This document shows positions 1,575 through 26,831 of a stretch of 28,811 nt of DNA, piece by piece. The notes under the pieces were generated by a model. That model saw only the letters and a program-made list of their open reading frames with translations. It was not told where the DNA came from and ran no database searches. The translations under genes were made by a program, and so were the position numbers. Source of the stretch: a virus; IMG/VR virus record IMGVR_UViG_3300005471_000043, positions 1-28,811 of that record; one strand, written 5' to 3'. How positions within the stretch are numbered: the stretch's first letter is position 1; the number at the start of each line of letters is the position of its first letter.

Positions 1575-1862
1575 ATGAACGTAGAGAAGTGCTCGGTGGT
1601 GGGGCCTCGCGGGTTCTGTCAGCACGATGACGGCGACGGGTACTGGCCCGCCGCCTCGGTCCAGACCGCCTGCACTGAGGAGAACGCCATCCTGGTTGCC
1701 GAGCAGGTCGCGCCTTTGCTGCCTCTCCCGGATGGCTGGCATTGGGCCTCGGACACCGCCTACGTTCACGTCGGCCCGCTGACCGGCCTCGACGGCTCCC
1801 GCGAAGTCGTCATCAGCCGGACTGTCCGTCAGGCTGTTCTGGGAAGTGCCGCGGACTGGTAG
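1575..1862 (+). CDS. Small opposite-strand protein between portal and terminase
   Basis: A 95-residue rightward frame inside a leftward packaging block. It starts 33 bp from the divergent portal start and overlaps the last 34 bp of the terminase gene tail to tail. The protein looks real: mixed composition, several Trp/His/Tyr (GWHWASDTAYVHVGPLTG) and strong GC preference at third codon positions. The portal and terminase frames do not cover most of it, so this stretch has no other gene. I do not recognise the family. No good ribosome site or promoter is seen upstream of the ATG. It could be a moron expressed apart from the late genes. A chance open frame is possible but less likely. Confidence 0.55.
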   Translation: MNVEKCSVVGPRGFCQHDDGDGYWPAASVQTACTEENAILVAEQVAPLLPLPDGWHWASDTAYVHVGPLTGLDGSREVVISRTVRQAVLGSAADW

Positions 1863-3301
1863 GCGCGCAGGTATTGCATGGCCTGCTCGGCCCCGGCCTG
1901 TCCGGCGAGGAGTCGGTGCAGGGCCTGGCTGGTGGTGTCGACCTGGTCGTCGTGGGCGGCATTGGGGAACGAGATGTGTTCGATGAGGTAGTCGTCGATC
2001 CACGGCGCGAGCAACGGGTCGGGCAGATAGACGTTCCCGGACTCTACGAACGGAGCCACGGCCGAGGCGCGCGCGTACTTGCTGTCCTTCGGCGTGATCG
2101 GGATCAGGCCTGGGACTGTCGACCGCAACTGGGCGATGATCGCCGGGCCGTTGGCCTTGTCCTCGACCAGCTTGGCGTGCGCCTGCGGCCACTTCGCCGA
2201 CAGGGAGCGCATCGCCTGCGCGGTCGCCGGGAAGTCCAGCCGGTCCCGAATCTGGTCGAGGAGGTACACGTCGGCCCCGAACCGCGCCCACACCTGCCCC
2301 ACCACGAAGTCGGAGGCCTTCGTGTCCTTGAATGCAAGGTCCCACGACTGGATGACCTCGTCGGCGCCGTGCACCCACATCGACCCGTCGTCGCGGCGAA
2401 CCGCCTGAGGTGCCATGTACCAGCGCCAGTGCGACCGTTTGAAGAGGCCGCCCTCCGCTGGTGCCGGGCGGCCCTGATAGAGCGCCGACCATGTGCGGGC
2501 GCCGACGTCGCGCCGCGTCATCTCCCAGTCGGCTGCGGTTCGGCCGCGCGCCGAGATGAGGTACTCGCCGGGGCGGCGACCTAGGGGGTCGTCGTCGCCT
2601 TCGGCCTGCGCGGGAACGTTGATGTACCGCCACTCATGCCCTGACGGGCCGGCCAGGAGCCACCCGGACAGGTCGTCCTCGTGCCAGCGGGTTTGGATGA
2701 TGATCTGCGGCGCCGTCGGCGCGAGACGGGTGCGGGCGGTGTCGGTGTAGAAGTCCTTGCACGCCTGCCGGAACGTCGGGCTGTCAGCTTCCTTGCGGCC
2801 CTTCAATGGGTCGTCGATGAGCAGCACGTCCACGGGCCGGCCCGTGAGCGCACCGCCGATACCAACGGAGTACACGCCGCCGCGGTGACCTTCCAACTGC
2901 CATTCGTGCGCGGCGGAAGTGTCGGCACGGACTGTGAGTCCTAGCTCGGGGTGTTCGGCGATGTCGTTACGGATGGCGCGGCCCCACCGGCGGGCGACGC
3001 CCGCTTCGTAGGAGACGATCGCAATCCGCAGATCCGGGTTGCGGACCAGCAGCCATAGAGGGAAGCGGCGGCTGGTCCGTTCACTTTTCCCTTCCTGTGG
3101 CGGCATCGACCAGATCAGACGCCGACAGCGGCCTTCGGCGACGTCGACGAGGTTGGCGTCGAGGAGATCCAGAGCCGCGGTCTGCACTGTCTGCGGGTCC
3201 ATGTGCCGAGCCAGGGCGCCGGGCGTCGCCCACTGCTGGTGCTGGCTGGCCGGCTCGAACGCGCGGGCCGCGAATTCGAGCCAGTCCGTCGTGGCGGTCA
3301 T
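1829..3301 (-). CDS. Terminase large subunit
   Basis: The ATP-driven DNA packaging motor and headful/cos nuclease, 490 residues, the usual length. The ATPase half shows a Walker A variant MPPQEGKSE (about 66-74), Walker B VDVLLIDD (157-164) and the coupling segment IIQTRWHEDD (201-210). The C-terminal RNase H-like nuclease shows SWDLAFKDTKASDF (about 315), a second acidic segment VEDKANG, and the closing DDQVD near residue 451. The ATG at 3301 is preceded by GGAGG at good distance. It lies 19 bp after the small-terminase candidate and before the portal. All catalytic motifs appear present, so the gene looks functional. Confidence 0.95.
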   Translation of the reverse strand: MTATTDWLEFAARAFEPASQHQQWATPGALARHMDPQTVQTAALDLLDANLVDVAEGRCRRLIWSMPPQEGKSERTSRRFPLWLLVRNPDLRIAIVSYEAGVARRWGRAIRNDIAEHPELGLTVRADTSAAHEWQLEGHRGGVYSVGIGGALTGRPVDVLLIDDPLKGRKEADSPTFRQACKDFYTDTARTRLAPTAPQIIIQTRWHEDDLSGWLLAGPSGHEWRYINVPAQAEGDDDPLGRRPGEYLISARGRTAADWEMTRRDVGARTWSALYQGRPAPAEGGLFKRSHWRWYMAPQAVRRDDGSMWVHGADEVIQSWDLAFKDTKASDFVVGQVWARFGADVYLLDQIRDRLDFPATAQAMRSLSAKWPQAHAKLVEDKANGPAIIAQLRSTVPGLIPITPKDSKYARASAVAPFVESGNVYLPDPLLAPWIDDYLIEHISFPNAAHDDQVDTTSQALHRLLAGQAGAEQAMQYLRAYQSAALPRTA

Positions 3302-6280: not shown

Positions 6281-6679
6281 TCATGAAGCTTGAGCGGCGA
6301 GACTGACGCCCAAAGATTGCAATGTGAAGGTGTCCCCCGACGCCCATGCCTTACTGGCGGTAAGAGCCACGGAGAACAGGAACGTGCCGCCCGAGCTGGC
6401 GGTCCACACGGAAATGTCCGTGATGGTCTCCGACGTGCCGCCGTTGGTCCATGCCGGATTGGTGCCTGTGAGTGCGAGCGCGGAGCCGGCGGACGATGCG
6501 GCGTGCGTGAAGATGACGCGCGTGCTGGAGCCCGCAGAGATGGCGGTGGTGCCGGCCGCGCCCGGGTTGGCAGTGTGCAGCTGTGCGTACTCGGCGGCTA
6601 CCGGGCCGAAGGCTGCACCCGCCGCGCGCAGGGTGTTGAGCCAGTTGGAGACCAGGGTGGTGGAGAGTCCTTCAGCCAT
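6281..6679 (-). CDS. Tail-fibre-like virion protein
   Basis: A 132-residue protein beginning MAEGLSTTLVSNWLNTLR, followed by YAQLHTANPGAAGTTAIS and a C-terminal beta-rich part ending SLGVSLAAQAS. This N-terminal pattern, with LHTANPGAAG, is typical of a small phage tail-fibre family frequent in actinophages and prophages. GAGGAGC lies nine bases before the ATG. The start overlaps the preceding small gene by eight bases. The role in the virion is inferred from family resemblance and the adjacent LamG-like gene. Confidence 0.78.
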   Translation of the reverse strand: MAEGLSTTLVSNWLNTLRAAGAAFGPVAAEYAQLHTANPGAAGTTAISAGSSTRVIFTHAASSAGSALALTGTNPAWTNGGTSETITDISVWTASSGGTFLFSVALTASKAWASGDTFTLQSLGVSLAAQAS

Positions 6680-15639: not shown

Positions 15640-16056
15640 TTAGCGGCGTCGGCCGCGTTCGCCTCGCCGCGGACGCGTGGCGGGGTCGCTGCCGTTCTGG
15701 ACGCGCTTCTCCAGTCCGCGGATTTCGGCGTCGTCGAGGTAGGCGCTGTAGTCGCCGTGGCCGACGGGTCCGGCAACCTGCCGTCCGGGGCTGCCGACCT
15801 CTCGCATTCCGCGGGGCGGCTGCTCGTAGACGGTGCCGTAGGTGAGGAGCAGGCCTTCGGCGGACATGTGCTCGGTCATCCAGTTCCGGGTGACCGGGGA
15901 GCGCCAGGTGAAGGTGTGGGAGGTCCACATCTTGGCGTCTTCCCAGGGCGCCATGTTGAGGGCCTGCTTGGAGACGGTGTAGACGGTGACTCCCTTGCGG
16001 ATGAAGGCGTTGAGGTCGCGGGCGCCCCTGCGGCCGGGCTGCCAGGTCTTGGGCAT
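15640..16056 (-). CDS. Basic protein of the spread operon, 138 residues
   Basis: Starts at ATG 16056; a GGAG lies eight bases upstream. The front is basic (KTWQPGRRGARDLNAFIRKG), the centre aromatic (WEDAKMWTSHTFTWRSPVTR), and the tail very arginine-rich (TRPRRGERGRRR). A nucleic-acid-binding role is suggested by charge only. It is the first gene after the repeat cluster 3' of the translocase gene. Confidence 0.66.
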   Translation of the reverse strand: MPKTWQPGRRGARDLNAFIRKGVTVYTVSKQALNMAPWEDAKMWTSHTFTWRSPVTRNWMTEHMSAEGLLLTYGTVYEQPPRGMREVGSPGRQVAGPVGHGDYSAYLDDAEIRGLEKRVQNGSDPATRPRRGERGRRR

Positions 16057-16144
16057 GAGTGGATCTCCGTTCCGTTATGTGGTGGTATGCGGGGCGGACA
16101 GGGACGGGTTTGCCCCGGTCTGCACCCCGTTCGGGGCTGGACGG

Positions 16145-16241
16145 TGGGTGGACACGGCCCGGGCGGTGTCCGGGCGCCGTCCGGGCCGTCCACCCAGACA
16201 TCCCGGGGCATACCGGGCGATGTCCGGGCGACAGTCCGGTG
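16145..16241. repeat. Phased 8-bp repeat cluster, candidate transfer locus (clt-like)
   Basis: This is a 198-bp gap directly 3' of the TraB/FtsK-like gene. GTCCGGGC occurs perfectly at 16168, 16179 and 16222, with near copies at 16157, 16212 and 16234. This makes two triplets with 10-12-bp spacing, one per helical turn. The first triplet is enclosed by an inverted repeat (TGGGTGGACACGGCCCGG at 16145 against CCGGGCCGTCCACCCA at 16181). Streptomyces TraB proteins bind clusters of 8-bp repeats (GACCCGGA in pSVH1). A similar role here is inferred from position and repeat type. Confidence 0.5.
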
Positions 16242-16254
16242 CAAAGGTCACATA

Positions 16255-18459
16255 TCAGTTGCCTTCGAGGAGCTTCAGTGCGTCGGCGATGTCGTCGCGC
16301 TGGTAGCCGTTGACGCGGCCGGCGCCCTCGATGTCGACCTTGACTGTGCCGCCGGCTCCCCCGTCGCGCAGGAGCTTGCCGAGGCGGGTCTCCGTCATGC
16401 CGCCGCCGATGAGCTCGGTCATTTCCTTGATCTGGGCCACGTCACGGCCGAGGTCGTCCATGGCCTTCAGGCAGCCGCGCAGGGCGTCCATCTGCATGCG
16501 CTGCTCGGGCGTGTGGTTGAGCACGTTCCGGCCCGGGATGCCGTCACGCTTCGGGCCGCCGGCTGCCGACGACAGGCCTGTGGCATTGAGGAGGTGCCGC
16601 TCGATCGGGTCCTCCCACTGGCCGGCCAGACGGCCCGCCTGCTCGCGGATCTTCGCCGACTTCTCCAGCAGCATGGTGATCTCGCCCCGGTCGTCCTCGT
16701 CCGTGTCGAACGAGCGGGCCTTGTCGGTGAGCCCGACGAATGGATTGACCAGCCAACCGAGGCCGGGACGCGGGGGGTCGAACTTGGAGGCGTCACGCCC
16801 CATGCCGGATGAACCGGCTCCGAGGATGGCGTTGGACTGCTGCGCGGTGTCAACGCGCATCGCCCACTTGGTGGTGAAGTTGACCGCCAGCTCGGTCGGG
16901 AAGACGTCAGCGCCCGGGTACTGGGTGAGGACGACCAGGATGATTCCGGCACCTGCGGCCACGGAGGCGAGGAGAACGAGGCGTTCCAGGATCTCGTCCC
17001 GCAGCGGCTTCCCCGGTCGCGTGTAGGTGGCGAGCTCGTCGATGATGACCAGTTCGAGTCCGCCGATCTGCTCGATGGCAGGCGCCACCAGCTTGCTCTT
17101 GCCGAGGCGGTCGAGTTCACTCTCACGCCGGTCCTTGTCGGCTACTTCTGCGTCCAGGAAGGCCAGCAGACGGGCAGGATCGGGCTTGAAGTAGGTCGAC
17201 GCGACGCCCGTCTGGGCGTAGGGGTTCCACTCGGCGTTCTGCTTGCCCGCAACGATCCGCAGGTTGATCCGCGGGTCGAAGGTGGATCCGACGGCCAGGT
17301 TGGCGCCTGCTACACCCTTACCGGAGCGGGTTGTGCCCCCGATGGCGATGTTGGAACTGCGGACGGGCAGCAGGATCGTGTTGCCGCGCTTGCCCCACCC
17401 GACGGGTACGCCATCGTTGAAGGCGTCGAGTTGGGTCGGGTTCTTCATGAGTGGTGACGGCCGAACGTCCTCGAACGGGTCGCTATCGGCGAGCCACAGG
17501 CTAGTGCGGACGGCGCTGCCCGCCTTCTCGATGTCGACCATGGTGGAGTCGCGGCCGAGCCCACCAGCGAACTCCTCGATCTTGTCCTGGAGTTTGGCCA
17601 CGGTCTGCCCCGCGGGCAGGTCGAAGACGACGGTGGTGTTGCCGTCCTTCTCCCGCTGAGGCACGGCGAGGATGGCAAGTTGCTCGTCGCCCTTCATCAT
17701 GCCGATCTTGCGGAGGGCTTCCTCAAGCTGCGGAACGGTGCACGCGGGCGGCGGCGGGGCGTTGAAGTCCCGCCCCCCAGGCTGCTCCGTCTTCACCATG
17801 TCGACGGGGGCGGCCAGCTGCGTCTCCATGCTCGGGGCAGGTGCAGGCTGGCCGTCGACGAAAGGGCGGGAGACGAGGTACCAGCCGTAGCCGGCCGCGG
17901 TGCCGAGGGCGGCGAGGAGGATGGGCTGGCCGTGGGCGGCCTGCTCGATGGCGTTGCCCAGTACGGGCATCGAGCCGAGGCCTCCTGCGACAAGCATCCC
18001 GGCGCGGGTGGCTTTCTTGACGGTGCGGGCCCTGTCGAGTTCGCGGTCAGTGATCGGCGCCTCAAGCCGATCACGTACCTCTTCCAGTCGCGTCTCGGCC
18101 GCCGCCAGGTCGGATGCGATCCGCTCAAGGGAGGTGTTCCGGCTCTGCTCGGGGTTGGCCTGCGCGAACCTGTTCTCCGTGTTGAAGCGGGCGTGGAGGC
18201 GGGCAACGTGTCGCTGCTGCTCGGTCTCCTGGATGGCGCGCTTCTGGGCTCGGCGCTTGAGTACCTCGCTGTGCAGGTCTGATTCGTCGATGTCGGCGGT
18301 GGCCAGCCAGTCCTTGGTGCGCGCGGTGACGTGGCCGCACTGTACGGAGAATGCGGCCTTCACTCGGTCGCCGCGGGTCGGCTCGGCAGCCTCGACGACC
18401 GGCTGCTCCACCGTCTCGGCGGGCTGCTCGTCGTGCTCGGTGTGGTACTCGGTGGCCAC
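16255..18459 (-). CDS. TraB/FtsK-like DNA translocase
   Basis: A 734-residue membrane-tethered ATPase of the FtsK/SpoIIIE/TraB class, which pumps double-stranded DNA through a hexameric ring. An acidic N-terminus is followed by a coiled segment (60-140), two hydrophobic stretches (about 153-172 and 178-197) and a motor: Walker A GGTTRSGKG (374-382), Walker B LELVIIDELATY (468-479), and LTQYP (511-515) in the place of the family's TQRP sensor. The C-terminal 75 residues (LIGGGMTETRLGKLLRDGG) look like a winged-helix DNA-recognition domain. The start is GTG 18459 behind GGAAAGG. Longer frames run into the next gene and are rejected. In Streptomyces plasmids TraB alone moves DNA between hyphae. 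A segregation role is the alternative. Confidence 0.86.
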   Translation of the reverse strand: MATEYHTEHDEQPAETVEQPVVEAAEPTRGDRVKAAFSVQCGHVTARTKDWLATADIDESDLHSEVLKRRAQKRAIQETEQQRHVARLHARFNTENRFAQANPEQSRNTSLERIASDLAAAETRLEEVRDRLEAPITDRELDRARTVKKATRAGMLVAGGLGSMPVLGNAIEQAAHGQPILLAALGTAAGYGWYLVSRPFVDGQPAPAPSMETQLAAPVDMVKTEQPGGRDFNAPPPPACTVPQLEEALRKIGMMKGDEQLAILAVPQREKDGNTTVVFDLPAGQTVAKLQDKIEEFAGGLGRDSTMVDIEKAGSAVRTSLWLADSDPFEDVRPSPLMKNPTQLDAFNDGVPVGWGKRGNTILLPVRSSNIAIGGTTRSGKGVAGANLAVGSTFDPRINLRIVAGKQNAEWNPYAQTGVASTYFKPDPARLLAFLDAEVADKDRRESELDRLGKSKLVAPAIEQIGGLELVIIDELATYTRPGKPLRDEILERLVLLASVAAGAGIILVVLTQYPGADVFPTELAVNFTTKWAMRVDTAQQSNAILGAGSSGMGRDASKFDPPRPGLGWLVNPFVGLTDKARSFDTDEDDRGEITMLLEKSAKIREQAGRLAGQWEDPIERHLLNATGLSSAAGGPKRDGIPGRNVLNHTPEQRMQMDALRGCLKAMDDLGRDVAQIKEMTELIGGGMTETRLGKLLRDGGAGGTVKVDIEGAGRVNGYQRDDIADALKLLEGN

Positions 18460-18518: not shown

Positions 18519-19097
18519 CTAGAGGCTGCCGAGGACGCTGCCGAGCGAGCCGACGCCGCTCGCCGTCATCTGGTGGATCATGGTTCCGAACGCTGTTCCA
18601 CCGAGGCCGACACCGAGGAACAGGAAGAGGACTGCGTCGCCCTTGTGGGCGTTGCTTCGAAGCCGGATGATCGCGATGGCTCCGAACAGCAGCGTCCCGG
18701 CGACCCCGGCGGCGACGTACCCGCCTGCGGACTGGGTGGTGACCTGCTGGGTGTATCCGGTCTGGGTTCCGTTGACGGGGTTGGTGATGGCCGCGCCAGC
18801 AGGGGTGAGGCCGGTGCCGAAACTGGGATCGGCCGCGGGCGTGGTGTCGGTCTTGAAGTCGGCGACGGTGGCGATGTGCTGGGCGGTGGCCTGGTGGCCG
18901 TAGCCGCCCATGCCGGTGATCCGGATGGTGCGGCCGTCGGGCAGGTTGACGGGGGCGGTGACGGCGCGGTGGGCGACGGTCTGCATCTCGGCCGCGGACG
19001 CCGGGCTGGGGGCCGCGACGGTGATCGCTGCCGCGCCGCCGAGGAGGGCTACGGCCGCACTGCCCGAGACGGCAAACTGGCGAAGGGTGGAACGCAT
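18519..19097 (-). CDS. Secreted or membrane protein with signal peptide, 192 residues
   Basis: Starts at ATG 19097 behind AGGAGA. A typical signal peptide is present: basic n-region MRSTLRQ, a hydrophobic core, and an A-S-A|A-E cleavage site near residues 34-36. The external part follows (about 36-125), then two hydrophobic segments (YVAAGVAGTLLFGAIAII and LFLFLGVGLGGTAFGTMIHQ). It lies between the DUF2637 and translocase genes. Small membrane proteins in this position are common in Streptomyces plasmid spread regions, so a channel or spread partner is inferred. Confidence 0.72.
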   Translation of the reverse strand: MRSTLRQFAVSGSAAVALLGGAAAITVAAPSPASAAEMQTVAHRAVTAPVNLPDGRTIRITGMGGYGHQATAQHIATVADFKTDTTPAADPSFGTGLTPAGAAITNPVNGTQTGYTQQVTTQSAGGYVAAGVAGTLLFGAIAIIRLRSNAHKGDAVLFLFLGVGLGGTAFGTMIHQMTASGVGSLGSVLGSL

Positions 19098-19120: not shown

Positions 19121-20431
19121 TTAGTTGTCGTTCGGGCGGTCGTTCTTGGTGGCCTGCTCAAGGGCGGCCTGCTTCTTCGCGCCCTCGGTGTACGGGGTGG
19201 TCTGGCCGGCCCGGCGGACGGGCGGAGTGCCGCCGTTGTTGCGGCGTCCGTCGGGGGCGTTCGGGTCCCGCTTCGATCGGGGACCCTTTTGGGATTCGAT
19301 CAGGGAAAACTCACCGATAATCGGTGTGCTGGTGACGTTCTGCATGCGGGCCTGCGCGGCGCGCGACTCGGCTTCGATTTCGGCGGTCACGCCGACCAAC
19401 TTCGAGCCCGTCTTGCGGTACCAGGCCTCGGCCCAGATCTGCTCCGTGACGTACTGCGAGCCGCGAGCGGAACGCATCGCCTCGGCGGTCTCCCAGATCT
19501 TCGGGTGGCCATCACGGCGGTCATCGTCGCGGCGCCGCTGCTCCTCCTCGGCGCGCTCCTGCGCGGCCTTCTTTTCGGCCGCCGCGGCCGTCTCGGCCGC
19601 TTCCTTCTCCAGGCGCGCCTGCTCGACTACTGCGGCCTCTGCTTCCGCGACCTTCTCAGCGCTGCGCCGCTCCCGCCATGACGGGATGCCGTCCGCCTTC
19701 TGGGCGATGCCGTGCTCGTAGGCCATGAGGACGATCGGCCCGCCGAGGGAGGCGATGGCGCCGATGAGGCCAGCGTTGAAGCCGATCGCCGGATCGGTGA
19801 TACCGCCATACATGTTGATCCCGGCGGCAATCGCCGCGCCGAACATGATGCCGACCCGGTACGGGGCGACGTCCCGACGATGAGCAACCGCCCAGGCGGC
19901 GCCGAACGCGAGAACCAGAGCCAGACCCTCCAGGAGCGCCGGCGCGGCAACGAGGAACGGCCGCTTCGGGTCCCAGAAGTGCATGAACTGCACCGGCGCA
20001 GCAATGATCAAGCCGACGGCATAGATGCCGCGCGCACCCCACTTCCACCAACGCTCCGAACGGCCCTGCTCCTTGGCGCGCTTCGCCTCCAAGGCGTCCG
20101 CGTCGGCCGCGGCCTGTTCCGCTTTCTCCCTGTCGGCATCAGCACGGGCGGTCTCGGCGGCCTTCTTGGCGAGGTAGGCATCGTGATCGGCCTGCTTCCT
20201 CTCCTGGGTCAGCCGGGCTCGCTCGTTGGCAAGCCTGAGCTTCTCGGCCTCCTCGACCGCCAGAATCTCGGCGGCCTTCGCGTCGCCCTTGGCCTTGGTG
20301 CGGATGGCCTCGGCTTCGGCGTCGGCGCGTTTCCGGATCGCCTCCGCCTCGGCCAGGGCGACCGGGTCGAACCGGGGCTCGGGCGAGGCCAGCAGCGAGC
20401 CGTTGACCTTCTTCTCGACGGAGGTGGTCAC
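19121..20431 (-). CDS. DUF2637 / Spd-like membrane protein
   Basis: A 436-residue protein starting at GTG 20431, with AGGAAGG about 11 bases upstream. Residues 20-125 form a long alanine/glutamate-rich coiled coil (AEAIRKRADAEAEAIRTKAK). About 134-240 hold four hydrophobic segments of the DUF2637 type (GIYAVGLIIAAPVQF, LLEGLALVLAFGAAWAVAHR, GIMFGAAIAAGINMYGG, NAGLIGAIASLGGPIVLMAY). A second charged coil follows, ending in a basic tail. DUF2637 proteins are encoded in spread regions of Streptomyces plasmids next to tra genes. Here it lies two genes before the translocase. Function in intramycelial spread is known only from genetics. Confidence 0.8.
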   Translation of the reverse strand: MTTSVEKKVNGSLLASPEPRFDPVALAEAEAIRKRADAEAEAIRTKAKGDAKAAEILAVEEAEKLRLANERARLTQERKQADHDAYLAKKAAETARADADREKAEQAAADADALEAKRAKEQGRSERWWKWGARGIYAVGLIIAAPVQFMHFWDPKRPFLVAAPALLEGLALVLAFGAAWAVAHRRDVAPYRVGIMFGAAIAAGINMYGGITDPAIGFNAGLIGAIASLGGPIVLMAYEHGIAQKADGIPSWRERRSAEKVAEAEAAVVEQARLEKEAAETAAAAEKKAAQERAEEEQRRRDDDRRDGHPKIWETAEAMRSARGSQYVTEQIWAEAWYRKTGSKLVGVTAEIEAESRAAQARMQNVTSTPIIGEFSLIESQKGPRSKRDPNAPDGRRNNGGTPPVRRAGQTTPYTEGAKKQAALEQATKNDRPNDN

Positions 20432-23100: not shown

Positions 23101-23528
23101 CACGACACCCCGATCAGGTCGAGGCTGCCAGCCGCGGCGAGCGTCGCCTTGGCGCCGGCCATGATGTCCTCGGCGTGGGCGAGATCGTCGGCCAGCATGG
23201 TCGGCATGCCGCTGAACAGGGCCTCGTTCCCGAGGTTCGCTGCACGCAGCGCCGCCCGGCGGAAGTCCACCACAGCTCGGATGACCGGGGTGATGATCTC
23301 CTTGATCAGATCCATTCGCCCAGCCGCGGCCAGCGTCATCGCCGACTCGACGAGGATGCGATCGCAGTCGACGAACGAGTCGAACTCGGCGCCCGACCAA
23401 CTGCGGGTCGGCTTCGCTTCCAGCTCGGCCTTCCGGTCCGTCGCGATCTCGTAGCGGGTGACGGCGCGAAGCACGTCCAGCGGAGCGGTGGGGAGGTGCT
23501 CTAGTGCACGAGTAGTACTGTTCGGCAT
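23100..23528 (-). CDS. First gene of the spread operon, 142 residues
   Basis: Starts at ATG 23528 behind AGGAGA. The product is helical and soluble (MPNSTTRALEHLPTAPLDVL, then MDLIKEIITPVIRAVVDFRR), with two copies of a TLAAAGxxDLI segment (TLAAAGRMDLIKEI and TLAAAGSLDLIGVS), hinting at an internal duplication. It is the promoter-proximal gene after a 134-base structured leader. Function unknown. Confidence 0.7.
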   Translation of the reverse strand: MPNSTTRALEHLPTAPLDVLRAVTRYEIATDRKAELEAKPTRSWSGAEFDSFVDCDRILVESAMTLAAAGRMDLIKEIITPVIRAVVDFRRAALRAANLGNEALFSGMPTMLADDLAHAEDIMAGAKATLAAAGSLDLIGVS

Positions 23529-23563
23529 GGCTAGCTCTCCTGGTGATGTCAGGTGGCTGGCTG

Positions 23564-23627
23564 CCCGGGAGCGGTGTGCTACCACCGCTCCCGGGACCCT
23601 TGGCCCTGGCTGGTGTGCTACCACCAG
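23564..23627. repeat. Twin hairpins with identical loops in the operon leader
   Basis: Hairpin 1 (23564-23595): CCCGGGAGCGGTG and CACCGCTCCCGGG, a perfect 13-pair stem. Hairpin 2 (23610-23627): CTGGTG and CACCAG. Both enclose TGCTAC, which reads GUAGCA in the leftward RNA; the shared word is GGTGTGCTACCACC. They lie in the 134-base leader of the spread operon. They may be RNA sites for a regulator or DNA operators of the adjacent GntR protein. Confidence 0.72.
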
Positions 23628-23644
23628 TCGGGGCCTTTCTTCTG

Positions 23645-23673
23645 TTGCGCGGCTGGGCCGCTGGCACTACCGT
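23645..23673 (+). promoter_or_regulatory. Rightward promoter of the GntR gene
   Basis: The -35 TTGCGC (23645-23650) and -10 TACCGT (23668-23673) are 17 bp apart. Transcription would start near 23680, about 42 bases before the GntR ATG. The -10 box overlaps that of the leftward promoter by five bases. Confidence 0.68.
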
Positions 23674-23697
23674 AGAGCAGAGCTAGAGCAGATGCAA
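23669..23697 (-). promoter_or_regulatory. Leftward promoter of the spread operon
   Basis: On the minus strand, -35 TTGCAT (23697-23692) and -10 TACGGT (23674-23669) are 17 bp apart. The start would be near 23662. The direct repeat AGAGCAG-AGCT-AGAGCAG lies between the boxes, a likely operator for the GntR protein. The two -10 boxes share the palindrome CTACCGTAG. Confidence 0.68.
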
Positions 23698-23721
23698 TCC
23701 CCGAAACCAACCAGGAGCGAT

Positions 23722-24450
23722 ATGCCGCCGACGAGGCGCTACGAGGAGATCGCCGCCCACTATCGGCGGCTAATTCAGGACGGCGAACTGTCCCCCGGTG
23801 ACAGCCTCCCGTCCCTCCGCAAGGTCTGCGACGAGTTCAGCGTCGCCATGGCCACAGCGAACCGCGCCTTCCAACTGCTCAAGTCGGAAGGCCTCACGGA
23901 AGCCACATCTGAAGGCACAGTCGTCGCCGCGCGCCCAGACGTCGCAGTGACCGGCGCCGCCCGACTGAAGCACCTGGAGCGCACCGGAAGCACGCGATTC
24001 CCGGGTGAGACGTCCAGCAATCACTGGCATGGTTTGCGTTCCGTCGCTGATCCGCTCATCGCCGAATTGCTCGGCGTCGAGCCCCACGACGAAATCGTGA
24101 TCCGACGACGCGTACACCACCGGGAAGGCGGCCCGTCCACCTTCGACAGTTCCTACATCCACGTCCGCGCCCTTGGCCCCGTCGAGGAGCTCTTGGGCGA
24201 GGGGCCGATGGAACGGTTCTGGCAGGAGATCTACAAGGAACGCACCGGGCGGGAATTGATCAAATCACCCGAGCGGCGCACAGCCCGGATCATCTCGCAG
24301 ACCGAACTGGAGGCGCTGGGCATCGACATGCCCGCCGACCGCACAGCCGCAGTGCTCGTCGTAGTCAACGTCTTCCACGACGAGGACGGTCCGCTGGAAG
24401 TCTGGGAGGACGTATATCCCCCGGGCGCCTGGCAGGTCGACACCGAATAA
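23722..24450 (+). CDS. GntR-family (HutC/UTRA) transcription regulator
   Basis: A 242-residue regulator starting at ATG 23722 behind AGGAG. Residues 1-75 are a GntR winged helix (RRYEEIAAHYRRLIQDGELS, LPSLRKVCDEFSVAMATANR, AFQLLKSEGL). Residues about 95-238 form a UTRA effector domain (ADPLIAELLGVEPHDEIVIR, then ELEALGIDMPADRTAAVLVV). Full length, no damage. GntR/UTRA proteins such as KorSA and KorA repress transfer genes on Streptomyces mobile elements. Facing the spread operon across overlapping promoters, it probably represses both. The effector is unknown. An in-frame extension upstream crosses the promoters and is rejected. Confidence 0.9.
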   Translation: MPPTRRYEEIAAHYRRLIQDGELSPGDSLPSLRKVCDEFSVAMATANRAFQLLKSEGLTEATSEGTVVAARPDVAVTGAARLKHLERTGSTRFPGETSSNHWHGLRSVADPLIAELLGVEPHDEIVIRRRVHHREGGPSTFDSSYIHVRALGPVEELLGEGPMERFWQEIYKERTGRELIKSPERRTARIISQTELEALGIDMPADRTAAVLVVVNVFHDEDGPLEVWEDVYPPGAWQVDTE

Positions 24451-25491: not shown

Positions 25492-25528
25492 TGTCGATCG
25501 ACCCCGAACCTCCAAGAACGGAGTGACC

Positions 25529-26377
25529 TTGAACATCGTCCCATCCTCGGGCGCCGAGCCCGACATCGGATCCTTCGAGTTCCACGGCGACACCGTCACC
25601 GTCGTCACCAACGAGCAGGGCAACTGGGCAGTCCTCGGACAGCTCTGCCAGAACCTGACCATCGACTCGGAGGCGCAGCGCAAGGCGATCCTGCGGAAGG
25701 CCTGGTCGCGGGGCCGGACCGACGTCATGGAGGTCCAGGTACCCGGCGATACCCAACGCCGTCCCCAGTTCCTGGTCCATGAGCGCATCGTCCCGATGTG
25801 GCTGGCCAACATCACCACCAGTCGGATCGCCGACGAACAGAAGCGCGAGAAGGTGGAGGAAGCGCAGGTCGAACTGGCCGACGCGCTTTACCGCTACGTC
25901 ACACAGAAGGCGGCGCCGCCCGCACCCGAGCCGCCGCGCGAGATCACGGCTGCGGCTGGCCCCCTGCCGTACAAGGAGCAGGCCGAGGTCGTCGTCATCT
26001 TCGCCAGGGCCGGCGTGCTGCCGGAGGCCTACGCGACCGCCACGGCCAAGGTGATCGTTGCCCGCGCGATGGGCGAGCGACCCGAACTGGAGCCGTCAGA
26101 GACGCCGCTGTACGCCGCGACGTTCCTGGCGGAGAAGGGTCACAAGCCGAAGACGGTGGCGAAGTTCCAGTCCGGGTTCGGCTCGCGCGTCTCGAACCGC
26201 TACTTCAAGGTGCACGGACGCCGCCCGGAGAAGATCCCGGGTCCGGCCGGTTCCCGCATCGACAAGGTCGCGGTGTACGTGGAGGACGACCGACCGATTC
26301 TGGAGCAGGTGTACGTCGAGATCGCCGACCAGATCAGCGCGTTCGAGAACGGGGGTCAGATCGCGCTCAGCGCGTAG
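25529..26377 (+). CDS. Phage antirepressor (P22_AR_N-like)
   Basis: About 282 residues. The N-terminal 100 residues match the phage antirepressor domain: DTVTVVTNEQGNWAVLGQLC, QRKAILRKAWSRGRTDVMEV, FLVHERIVPMWLANITTSRI, then QVELADALYRYV. The C-terminal part holds a second helical region (YKEQAEVVVIFARAGVLPEA) and a beta-rich end. Antirepressors bind and block the phage repressor, or compete for its sites, to start the lytic programme. The likely start is TTG 25529, five bases after GGAG; a GTG at 25523 overlaps the GGAG and is less likely. It faces away from the XRE gene. Confidence 0.83.
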   Translation: MNIVPSSGAEPDIGSFEFHGDTVTVVTNEQGNWAVLGQLCQNLTIDSEAQRKAILRKAWSRGRTDVMEVQVPGDTQRRPQFLVHERIVPMWLANITTSRIADEQKREKVEEAQVELADALYRYVTQKAAPPAPEPPREITAAAGPLPYKEQAEVVVIFARAGVLPEAYATATAKVIVARAMGERPELEPSETPLYAATFLAEKGHKPKTVAKFQSGFGSRVSNRYFKVHGRRPEKIPGPAGSRIDKVAVYVEDDRPILEQVYVEIADQISAFENGGQIALSA

Positions 26378-26389
26378 CCGAATGTCATG

Positions 26390-26419
26390 GAGGGCCCCGA
26401 CCCGCGGGTCGGGGCCCTC
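26390..26419. terminator. Fifteen-pair palindromic terminator
   Basis: GAGGGCCCCGACCCG and CGGGTCGGGGCCCTC form a perfect palindrome right after the antirepressor stop. The Nudix ribosome site begins only four bases later, so the Nudix gene may depend on read-through or on a promoter of its own. Confidence 0.88.
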
Positions 26420-26435
26420 TCCGATCGGAGACCCC

Positions 26436-26831
26436 ATGACCGACCCCACGATCGCCGCTGCGGTCGTCCCCCATGCCGGCCGCGTCCTCCTGGTCCGCCG
26501 CACCTCCCCCGCCGGCCCCCTCGTCTGGACGTTCCCCAGCGGCAAGCTGGAGCCGGGCGAGTCCGCGGCCGAGGCTGCGGCCAGAGAGGCGATGGAGGAG
26601 GCTGGAGTGACGGTGGCCCCGCTGCGGCTGCTGGGTGAGCGGGTGCATCCCGATACCGGCCGGCGCATGTTCTACGTGGCCTGCCGCCTCGTCTCGGGTA
26701 CGGCGCACGCTGCGTCGCCGCGGGAGGTCGCAGAGGTGGCGTGGGTCGACCTCGGCGGGCTGCGGGAGCTGGTGCCCGGCGGGGTGTACGCCCCGGCGCA
26801 GGCGTACCTGAATGAGGCGCTGGCCCGTTAG
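26436..26831 (+). CDS. Nudix hydrolase
   Basis: A 131-residue enzyme of the family that cleaves nucleoside diphosphates linked to a second group, using Mg2+ or Mn2+. The Nudix box (GX5EX7REUXEEXGU) is complete at residues 36-58: G36, E42, then REAMEEAGV at 50-58. Other parts fit: VVPHAGRVLLVRRTSPAGPL at the front and AEVAWVDLGGL near the end. ATG 26436 has GGAG five bases before it. The length is normal. Possible roles are sanitising the nucleotide pool or breaking a signalling nucleotide; the substrate cannot be read from the sequence. Confidence 0.92.
   Translation: MTDPTIAAAVVPHAGRVLLVRRTSPAGPLVWTFPSGKLEPGESAAEAAAREAMEEAGVTVAPLRLLGERVHPDTGRRMFYVACRLVSGTAHAASPREVAEVAWVDLGGLRELVPGGVYAPAQAYLNEALAR

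Follow-up and report, generated by a model that had tools for sequence, protein, structure and literature searches.

Introduction

The closest described counterparts of the locus studied here are the TraB/clt systems of Streptomyces plasmids. TraB of pSVH1 binds 8-bp repeats and carries a C-terminal winged helix (PMC3583192). The clt site of pWTY27 was mapped experimentally to 16 bp of traA together with the 159 bp behind it and was footprinted with TraA (PMC3583192). AICEs are integrated elements in which an integrase is combined with a single TraB that moves double-stranded DNA (PMC3218068, PMC9513070). Those in a Streptomyces survey measured 11.9-36.2 kb, and no clt motif has been described for pSAM2 (PMC9513070); prophage-like fragments were set aside in an AICE survey (PMC3218068). 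Conjugal transfer of a phage has a precedent, as far as the citation in PMC3583192 goes: pZL12 (Streptomyces phage ZL12) is described there as having plasmid-type functions and an FtsK-like gene, and its conjugal transfer was reported.

The window, which is the whole stretch of 28,811 nucleotides analysed here, is a 28.8-kb fragment that makes up the whole extent of virus record IMGVR_UViG_3300005471_000043. An earlier note on this DNA had read a cluster of short repeats behind a TraB-like gene as a cis-acting site for single-protein DNA transfer. Here we compare this locus with its relatives in phages, prophages and plasmids.

Results

The TraB-like protein and its gene neighborhood

The features of the window are collected in Table 1. 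The TraB-like protein matches PHROG 1358, which is FtsK/SpoIIIE-like (E 9e-28), its profile matches FtsK 2iuu (E 7e-8), and it is 29% identical to pSVH1 TraB over 383 aa (E 6e-35). These matches point to an FtsK/SpoIIIE-like motor, as in the Streptomyces TraB/clt system. No clear transmembrane helix was found in the protein; mildly hydrophobic helices are located at residues ~152-200.

Structure prediction agrees with the proposal that the protein ends in a winged helix. AlphaFold2 modelled the C-terminal domain alone with a pLDDT of 82 and an H-H-H-E-E-H topology, and the closest structural match of this model is the N-terminal winged helix of Rex (Z 8.0, rmsd 2.9, 76 aligned). A Foldseek search with the domain returned no match at E<0.001, and the predicted winged helix is therefore called from the topology and the VIA-align Z of 8.0. 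The full-length model is poor (mean pLDDT 51), leaving the domain alone as the usable model. At the sequence level the link between this winged helix and pSVH1 TraB is weak (hhalign probability 50%, E 2e-4).

The gene order GntR / SpdB / small gene / traB / ~200-bp gap is the same as in pSVH1. A GntR/UTRA regulator is present near the tra genes, and the true start of its ORF is probably further downstream in the same frame. The SpdB-like protein was assigned by position and hydrophobic segments, its sequence similarity to pSVH1 SpdB2 being weak (E 0.002). No Pfam integrase was found in the 28.8-kb fragment. AICEs have int, rep and tra genes without phage structural genes; the window has terminase and head genes and does not fit this description. 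Two further genes were observed. The product of 25523-26377 is a P22_AR_N antirepressor-like protein (Pfam E 9e-14; PHROG 524 Ant), which suggests a lysogeny switch with antirepression, and the ORF at 26058-26831 (+) has a Nudix-box-like stretch, GKLEPGESAAEAAAREAMEEAGV, spotted by eye, and is a probable Nudix hydrolase.

Table 1. Positions of the genes and repeat features of the window
Feature	Position	Strand	Remarks
Phage terminase large subunit	1829..3301	-	PHROG 38, E 6e-103
Phage head protein	6281..6679	-	PHROG 240, E 1e-18
Gene downstream of the gap	15640-16056	-	next after the traB stop
Reverse (distal) arm	16094..16153	-	degenerate reverse repeats GTCC(A/G)(C/G) at 16150, 16139, 16096
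Inverted repeat, dyad of the array	16146..16195	.	repeat polarity flips here; relatives have a palindrome, e.g. GGTGGACGCGACCCGGGTCGCGTCCACC in L005
Forward (traB-proximal) arm, candidate clt	16158..16245	-	CCCGG(AC), low ends 16234, 16222, 16213, 16203, 16179, 16168, 16159
traB-like gene	16255..18459	-	734 aa; GTG start, inferred from relatives; FtsK/SpoIIIE-type motor, Walker A GGTTRSGKG, Walker B VIIDE
TraB C-terminal winged-helix domain (predicted)	16264..16512	-	residues about 650-732; predicted alpha3 16360-16392, wing RVNGY
Protein of 192 aa, three hydrophobic segments	18519..19097	-	between the SpdB-like gene and traB
SpdB-like protein, three hydrophobic segments	19121..20431	-	pSVH1 spdB2 position
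GntR/UTRA regulator	23458..24450	+	Pfam GntR 2e-11, UTRA 5e-9; divergent from the tra genes

A repeat array in the gap behind traB

The traB stop is separated from the next gene, also on the minus strand, by a gap of 198 bp (16057-16254) that contains no convincing gene, and the repeats are indeed located in this gap right 3' of the TraB-like gene. The repeat had been described as the exact 8-mer GTCCGGGC, which has three copies in the gap (16168, 16179 and 16222; GCCCGGAC in the traB direction) and four elsewhere in the window. Seven copies over the whole window are at chance level (21 of 100 shuffles reach seven), but three in the gap compare with 0.04 expected and were reached in none of 2000 shuffles. 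The enrichment is thus found in the gap and not in the window as a whole.

The clustered repeats are better described by the core CCCGGAC than by the exact 8-mer, and the gap is the sole place in the window with three CCCGGAC inside 130 bp. CCCGG starts at 16159, 16170 and 16181 and again at 16203, 16213 and 16224 (spacings 11, 11, 22, 10 and 11); six copies in 198 bp have a P of 0.0055 against shuffles. The two triplets at ~11-bp spacing that the earlier note had reported therefore hold for this core but not for the 8-mer, which occurs three times rather than six. Read in the traB direction, the CCCGG cores lie at 26, 37, 47, 69, 80 and 91 bp (spacings 11, 10, 22, 11 and 11), and an extra ACCGGAC lies one turn closer to traB (CCGGAC at 16234). 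The repeats of this forward arm are 10-12 bp apart or separated by two turns.

The originally proposed extent, 16145-16241, is in the right place but too short, as the array covers about 16094-16245 and has two arms. The distal arm of the window has the degenerate copies GTCCACC, GTCCAGC and GTCCGCC and no exact GTCCGGG, of which strong copies are found in relatives. The long inverted repeat noticed around the first triplet is real, though with a 2-bp offset: GGGTGGAC-AC-GGCCCGG (16146-16162) pairs with CCGGGCC-GTCCACCC (16181-16195). By generic repeat content the window array is moderate (z 4.5, P 0.003), and the case for it is made by its conservation in relatives.

The gap behind traB in pSVH1 contains four forward copies and one inverted copy of GACCCGGA. 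We take GACCCGGA to be the pSVH1 TRS, an assumption backed by its fivefold presence in this gap. As in the window, the pSVH1 repeats are short, GC-rich and built on a CCCGGA core; they begin ~15 bp past the traB stop, with forward sites at +15 to +95. The spacing is different, with GACCCGGA mostly 21-32 bp apart and CCCGGAC of the window at 11 bp, and so is the carrier, which for the window is a phage with terminase and head genes. The pWTY27 traA-clt region shares direct and inverted repeats at the 3' end of traA and beyond (PMC3583192). Its repeats, TGACACC/CCCGCCC, and its carrier, a small theta plasmid, are different. pZL12 was considered as a close relative and rejected: its FtsK-like protein has no detectable relationship to the window TraB by tblastn, and the gap behind the gene has no such array.

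Conservation of the array in relatives

TraB searches first yielded 8 viral and 4 genomic loci; more were added via alignment, followed by a second clade. Matches at E<=1e-150 were found in 6 of 393 and 4 of 395 Streptomyces genomes. A repeat array follows nearly every traB, in a ~170-260-bp gap ahead of the next gene. Repeated 7-mers were in excess over dinucleotide shuffles in 45 of 48 post-traB gaps (P<0.05), a set drawn from phages, prophages and 6 plasmids in which four near-duplicates were still present and the reading frame taken for one locus, L026, was wrong. Near-duplicates were excluded from the co-divergence and polarity tests described below. When all 190-bp windows of a record were ranked by repeat content, the gap came within the top 0.6% for 5 of 7 records. 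The exceptions are the prophages L007 and L009 (G006 and G008), which have an intact traB and an almost repeat-free gap; these gaps are possibly decayed transfer sites or use a different recognition word.

The array is local to the gap. CCGGAC-N5-CCGGAC is present in one copy per record in three phage records, always in the post-traB gap, and no other site was found in the records of eight relatives (~545 kb total); the host genomes have 13-28 scattered matches. The short repeats thus cluster close to traB and are unclustered elsewhere in the element, and the finding against which the earlier note had staked its reading, a repeat just as frequent elsewhere, did not emerge. When viral contigs were scanned for three CCGGAC spaced 11 bp apart and for nothing else, at least 120 stretches were listed, and most of those listed are in contigs with no other link to traB; the three-CCGGAC motif is therefore not specific without traB.

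Comparison of the gap among relatives showed that the repeats are kept while the downstream gene is replaced, which bears on the best surviving alternative, an operator array through which a regulator such as a GntR protein controls the genes downstream of traB. A gene does start a short distance past the array, and many repeats that lie upstream of genes are operators. However, the same class A array is found ahead of six gene families that are unrelated to each other, and the largest family found downstream sits after at least three motif classes, showing that the array is not tied to the gene behind it. In addition, the gap has no sigma-70-like promoter, and six records contained no second motif cluster near the tra or gntR promoters or elsewhere. 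An operator is disfavoured by these data and we consider it improbable.

The motif word varies by clade and includes CCGGAC, CCGGAA, CTGCTCAG and others. In class C phages (e.g. L040, traB stop 12245) we observed a second conserved inverted pair inside the array, with GCAGGTCA near +35 to +62 and TGACCTGC near +130 to +146. Among the plasmids examined (L014, L015, L053, L054, L055 and L057), most have the pair too, with the distal copy alone in pSVH1 and pSG5; it is absent from class A of the window. It may be a site for another protein.

Phage setting of the relatives

A tyrosine integrase match was found in 22 of 30 records. The class A prophage G186 lies in a 7.6-Mb contig between perfect 143-bp direct repeats 53.5 kb apart. 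It encodes integrases, DnaB helicase, TraB, portal, major head and tape-measure proteins and has tail genes; with this size and its portal, capsid and tail it differs from the AICEs. This prophage-like element (G186:C1:6732507-6786011; L087-L090) has integrase genes near both ends, and repeats of 143 bp are long for att sites. The Kitasatospora prophage record G008, identical in sequence to L013, encodes an integrase, a terminase, a portal and a tape-measure protein. No TraB relative was found at E<1e-5 in a collection of 50,697 phages, and 52 plasmids have one.

Phased repeats with a dyad are typical of replication-origin iterons and of centromeres, and the array could in principle be an origin or a partition site located behind traB by chance. 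Against this, the array accompanies traB in phages, prophages and plasmids alike, rep of pSVH1 lies elsewhere, and mapped clt sites are at exactly this position (PMC3583192). This explanation is likewise disfavoured and seems to us very unlikely.

Helical phasing and opposite polarity of the two arms

Among successive CCGGAC spacings, 37 of 45 are multiples of 11 within 1 bp, and the CCCGGAC start positions use mainly five of the eleven phases (51 of 54). Such same-strand phasing is a feature of helical DNA that an RNA does not need. It speaks against a further alternative, in which the repeats would be stems of an RNA structure within the traB transcript that acts as an attenuator, a terminator or an mRNA stabiliser. 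The array does contain an inverted repeat, and folding of the transcribed strand is slightly better than in shuffles (z -2.0), of which 6 in 200 did equally well. However, no Rfam family came near the cut-off and no terminator-like T run is present; the RNA reading is also disfavoured, and the least probable of the alternatives.

The two arms have opposite polarity. In every class A element with both orientations, CCCGGAC stays within +100, in the arm next to traB, and its reverse complement is confined to the distal arm, from +102 onward; the forward copy came before the reverse copy in 50 of 50 pairs (15 elements; permutation P=0.00005). Class C, whose TraB is 22% identical to that of the window, uses the word CTGCTCA, and all 118 pairs were in order (9 elements; permutation P=0.00005). 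These P values refer to the order within elements and not to independent origins, as the sequences are related. The stronger point is that one layout occurs in two distant TraB clades with different words: both have ~11-bp phasing, a forward proximal arm and a reverse-complement distal arm. The window follows the forward-then-reverse order with a looser motif. Phage relatives are strictly two-armed, whereas pSVH1 has one exception to the polarity. Phasing and polarity are features beyond those given in the earlier note, whose inverted repeat is the point at which the polarity flips. Clustering of dyad centres was dropped as evidence, since random pairs in a gap of fixed length also center there.

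Co-variation of the array and the winged helix

Across all 44 elements, divergence of the array tracked that of the winged helix over and above that of the remaining protein (partial Mantel 0.21; 0 of 2000 permutations). The rest of TraB keeps a partial signal with the array too (0.15, P 0.0015; 44 elements), and the co-divergence within clades was not significant (P about 0.08). As judged from these sequence comparisons, the co-divergence lends support to a link between motif and winged helix but does not settle it. A natural swap was found in L004, in which the motor is 82% identical to that of the window and the winged helix (79%) and the array are closest to L020. L004 and L020 have a fourth repeat word, of the CCCCGTCTTG / CGGGGTGG type, which pairs with the wing QVRGY and not RVNGY. 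The wings are altered too where the arrays are of the CCGGAA type (L022, L023). These pairings suggest that the wing helps to set repeat specificity.

Discussion

We propose that the array serves as a clt, at which TraB would dock for the conjugal transfer of double-stranded DNA of a temperate phage, and estimate the probability of this reading at roughly 0.82. Its locality, its conservation, the predicted winged helix and the gene order and repeat position shared with pSVH1 all support the original idea of a cis-acting site for single-protein transfer. The candidate clt thus stands, with three corrections: the core is CCCGGAC, the array is longer and two-armed, and the carrier is a phage. The phage carrier and the two-armed architecture are new here.

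In the proposed mechanism, the TraB winged helix would recognize the CCCGGAC repeats on one face of the DNA, as their ~11-bp phasing allows, and TraB would assemble on the array as an FtsK-like ring. The ring would pump double-stranded phage DNA into the neighboring hypha, with neither a relaxase nor a type IV system. The opposed arms would probably serve to load rings that face opposite ways on either side of the site, so that both arms of a closed DNA loop are drawn through. Opposed loading would be a natural reading because both arms of an uncut circle must move. A far more tentative extension, which we regard as doubtful at present, is a symmetric two-armed platform on which two TraB rings sit face to face on the closed or integrated phage genome and pump both loop arms through paired channels. 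Such an element would have two transmission modes, virions and conjugation, and integrated prophages could mobilize chromosomal DNA in an Hfr-like manner.

Polar short sequences read by the C-terminal winged helix of a ring translocase are familiar from KOPS and FtsK-gamma and from SRS and SpoIIIE. KOPS are dispersed genome-wide and direct motion, whereas the sequences described here form a single compact array.

The conserved two-armed, phased site provides a concrete, testable geometry for the way in which a ring of TraB might move a double-stranded circle that is not cut. About 40 pairs of TraB and candidate clt are carried by phages and cover at least four classes of repeat; they are natural material for reading the recognition code of the winged helix. 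The signature of position plus polarity could find clt sites where none have been described, for instance in pSAM2. Our study also locates conjugation genes in Streptomyces prophages that are integrated and look structurally complete, which would join two transfer routes in one element. Streptomyces viruses with this site may spread directly from cell to cell, as plasmids do.
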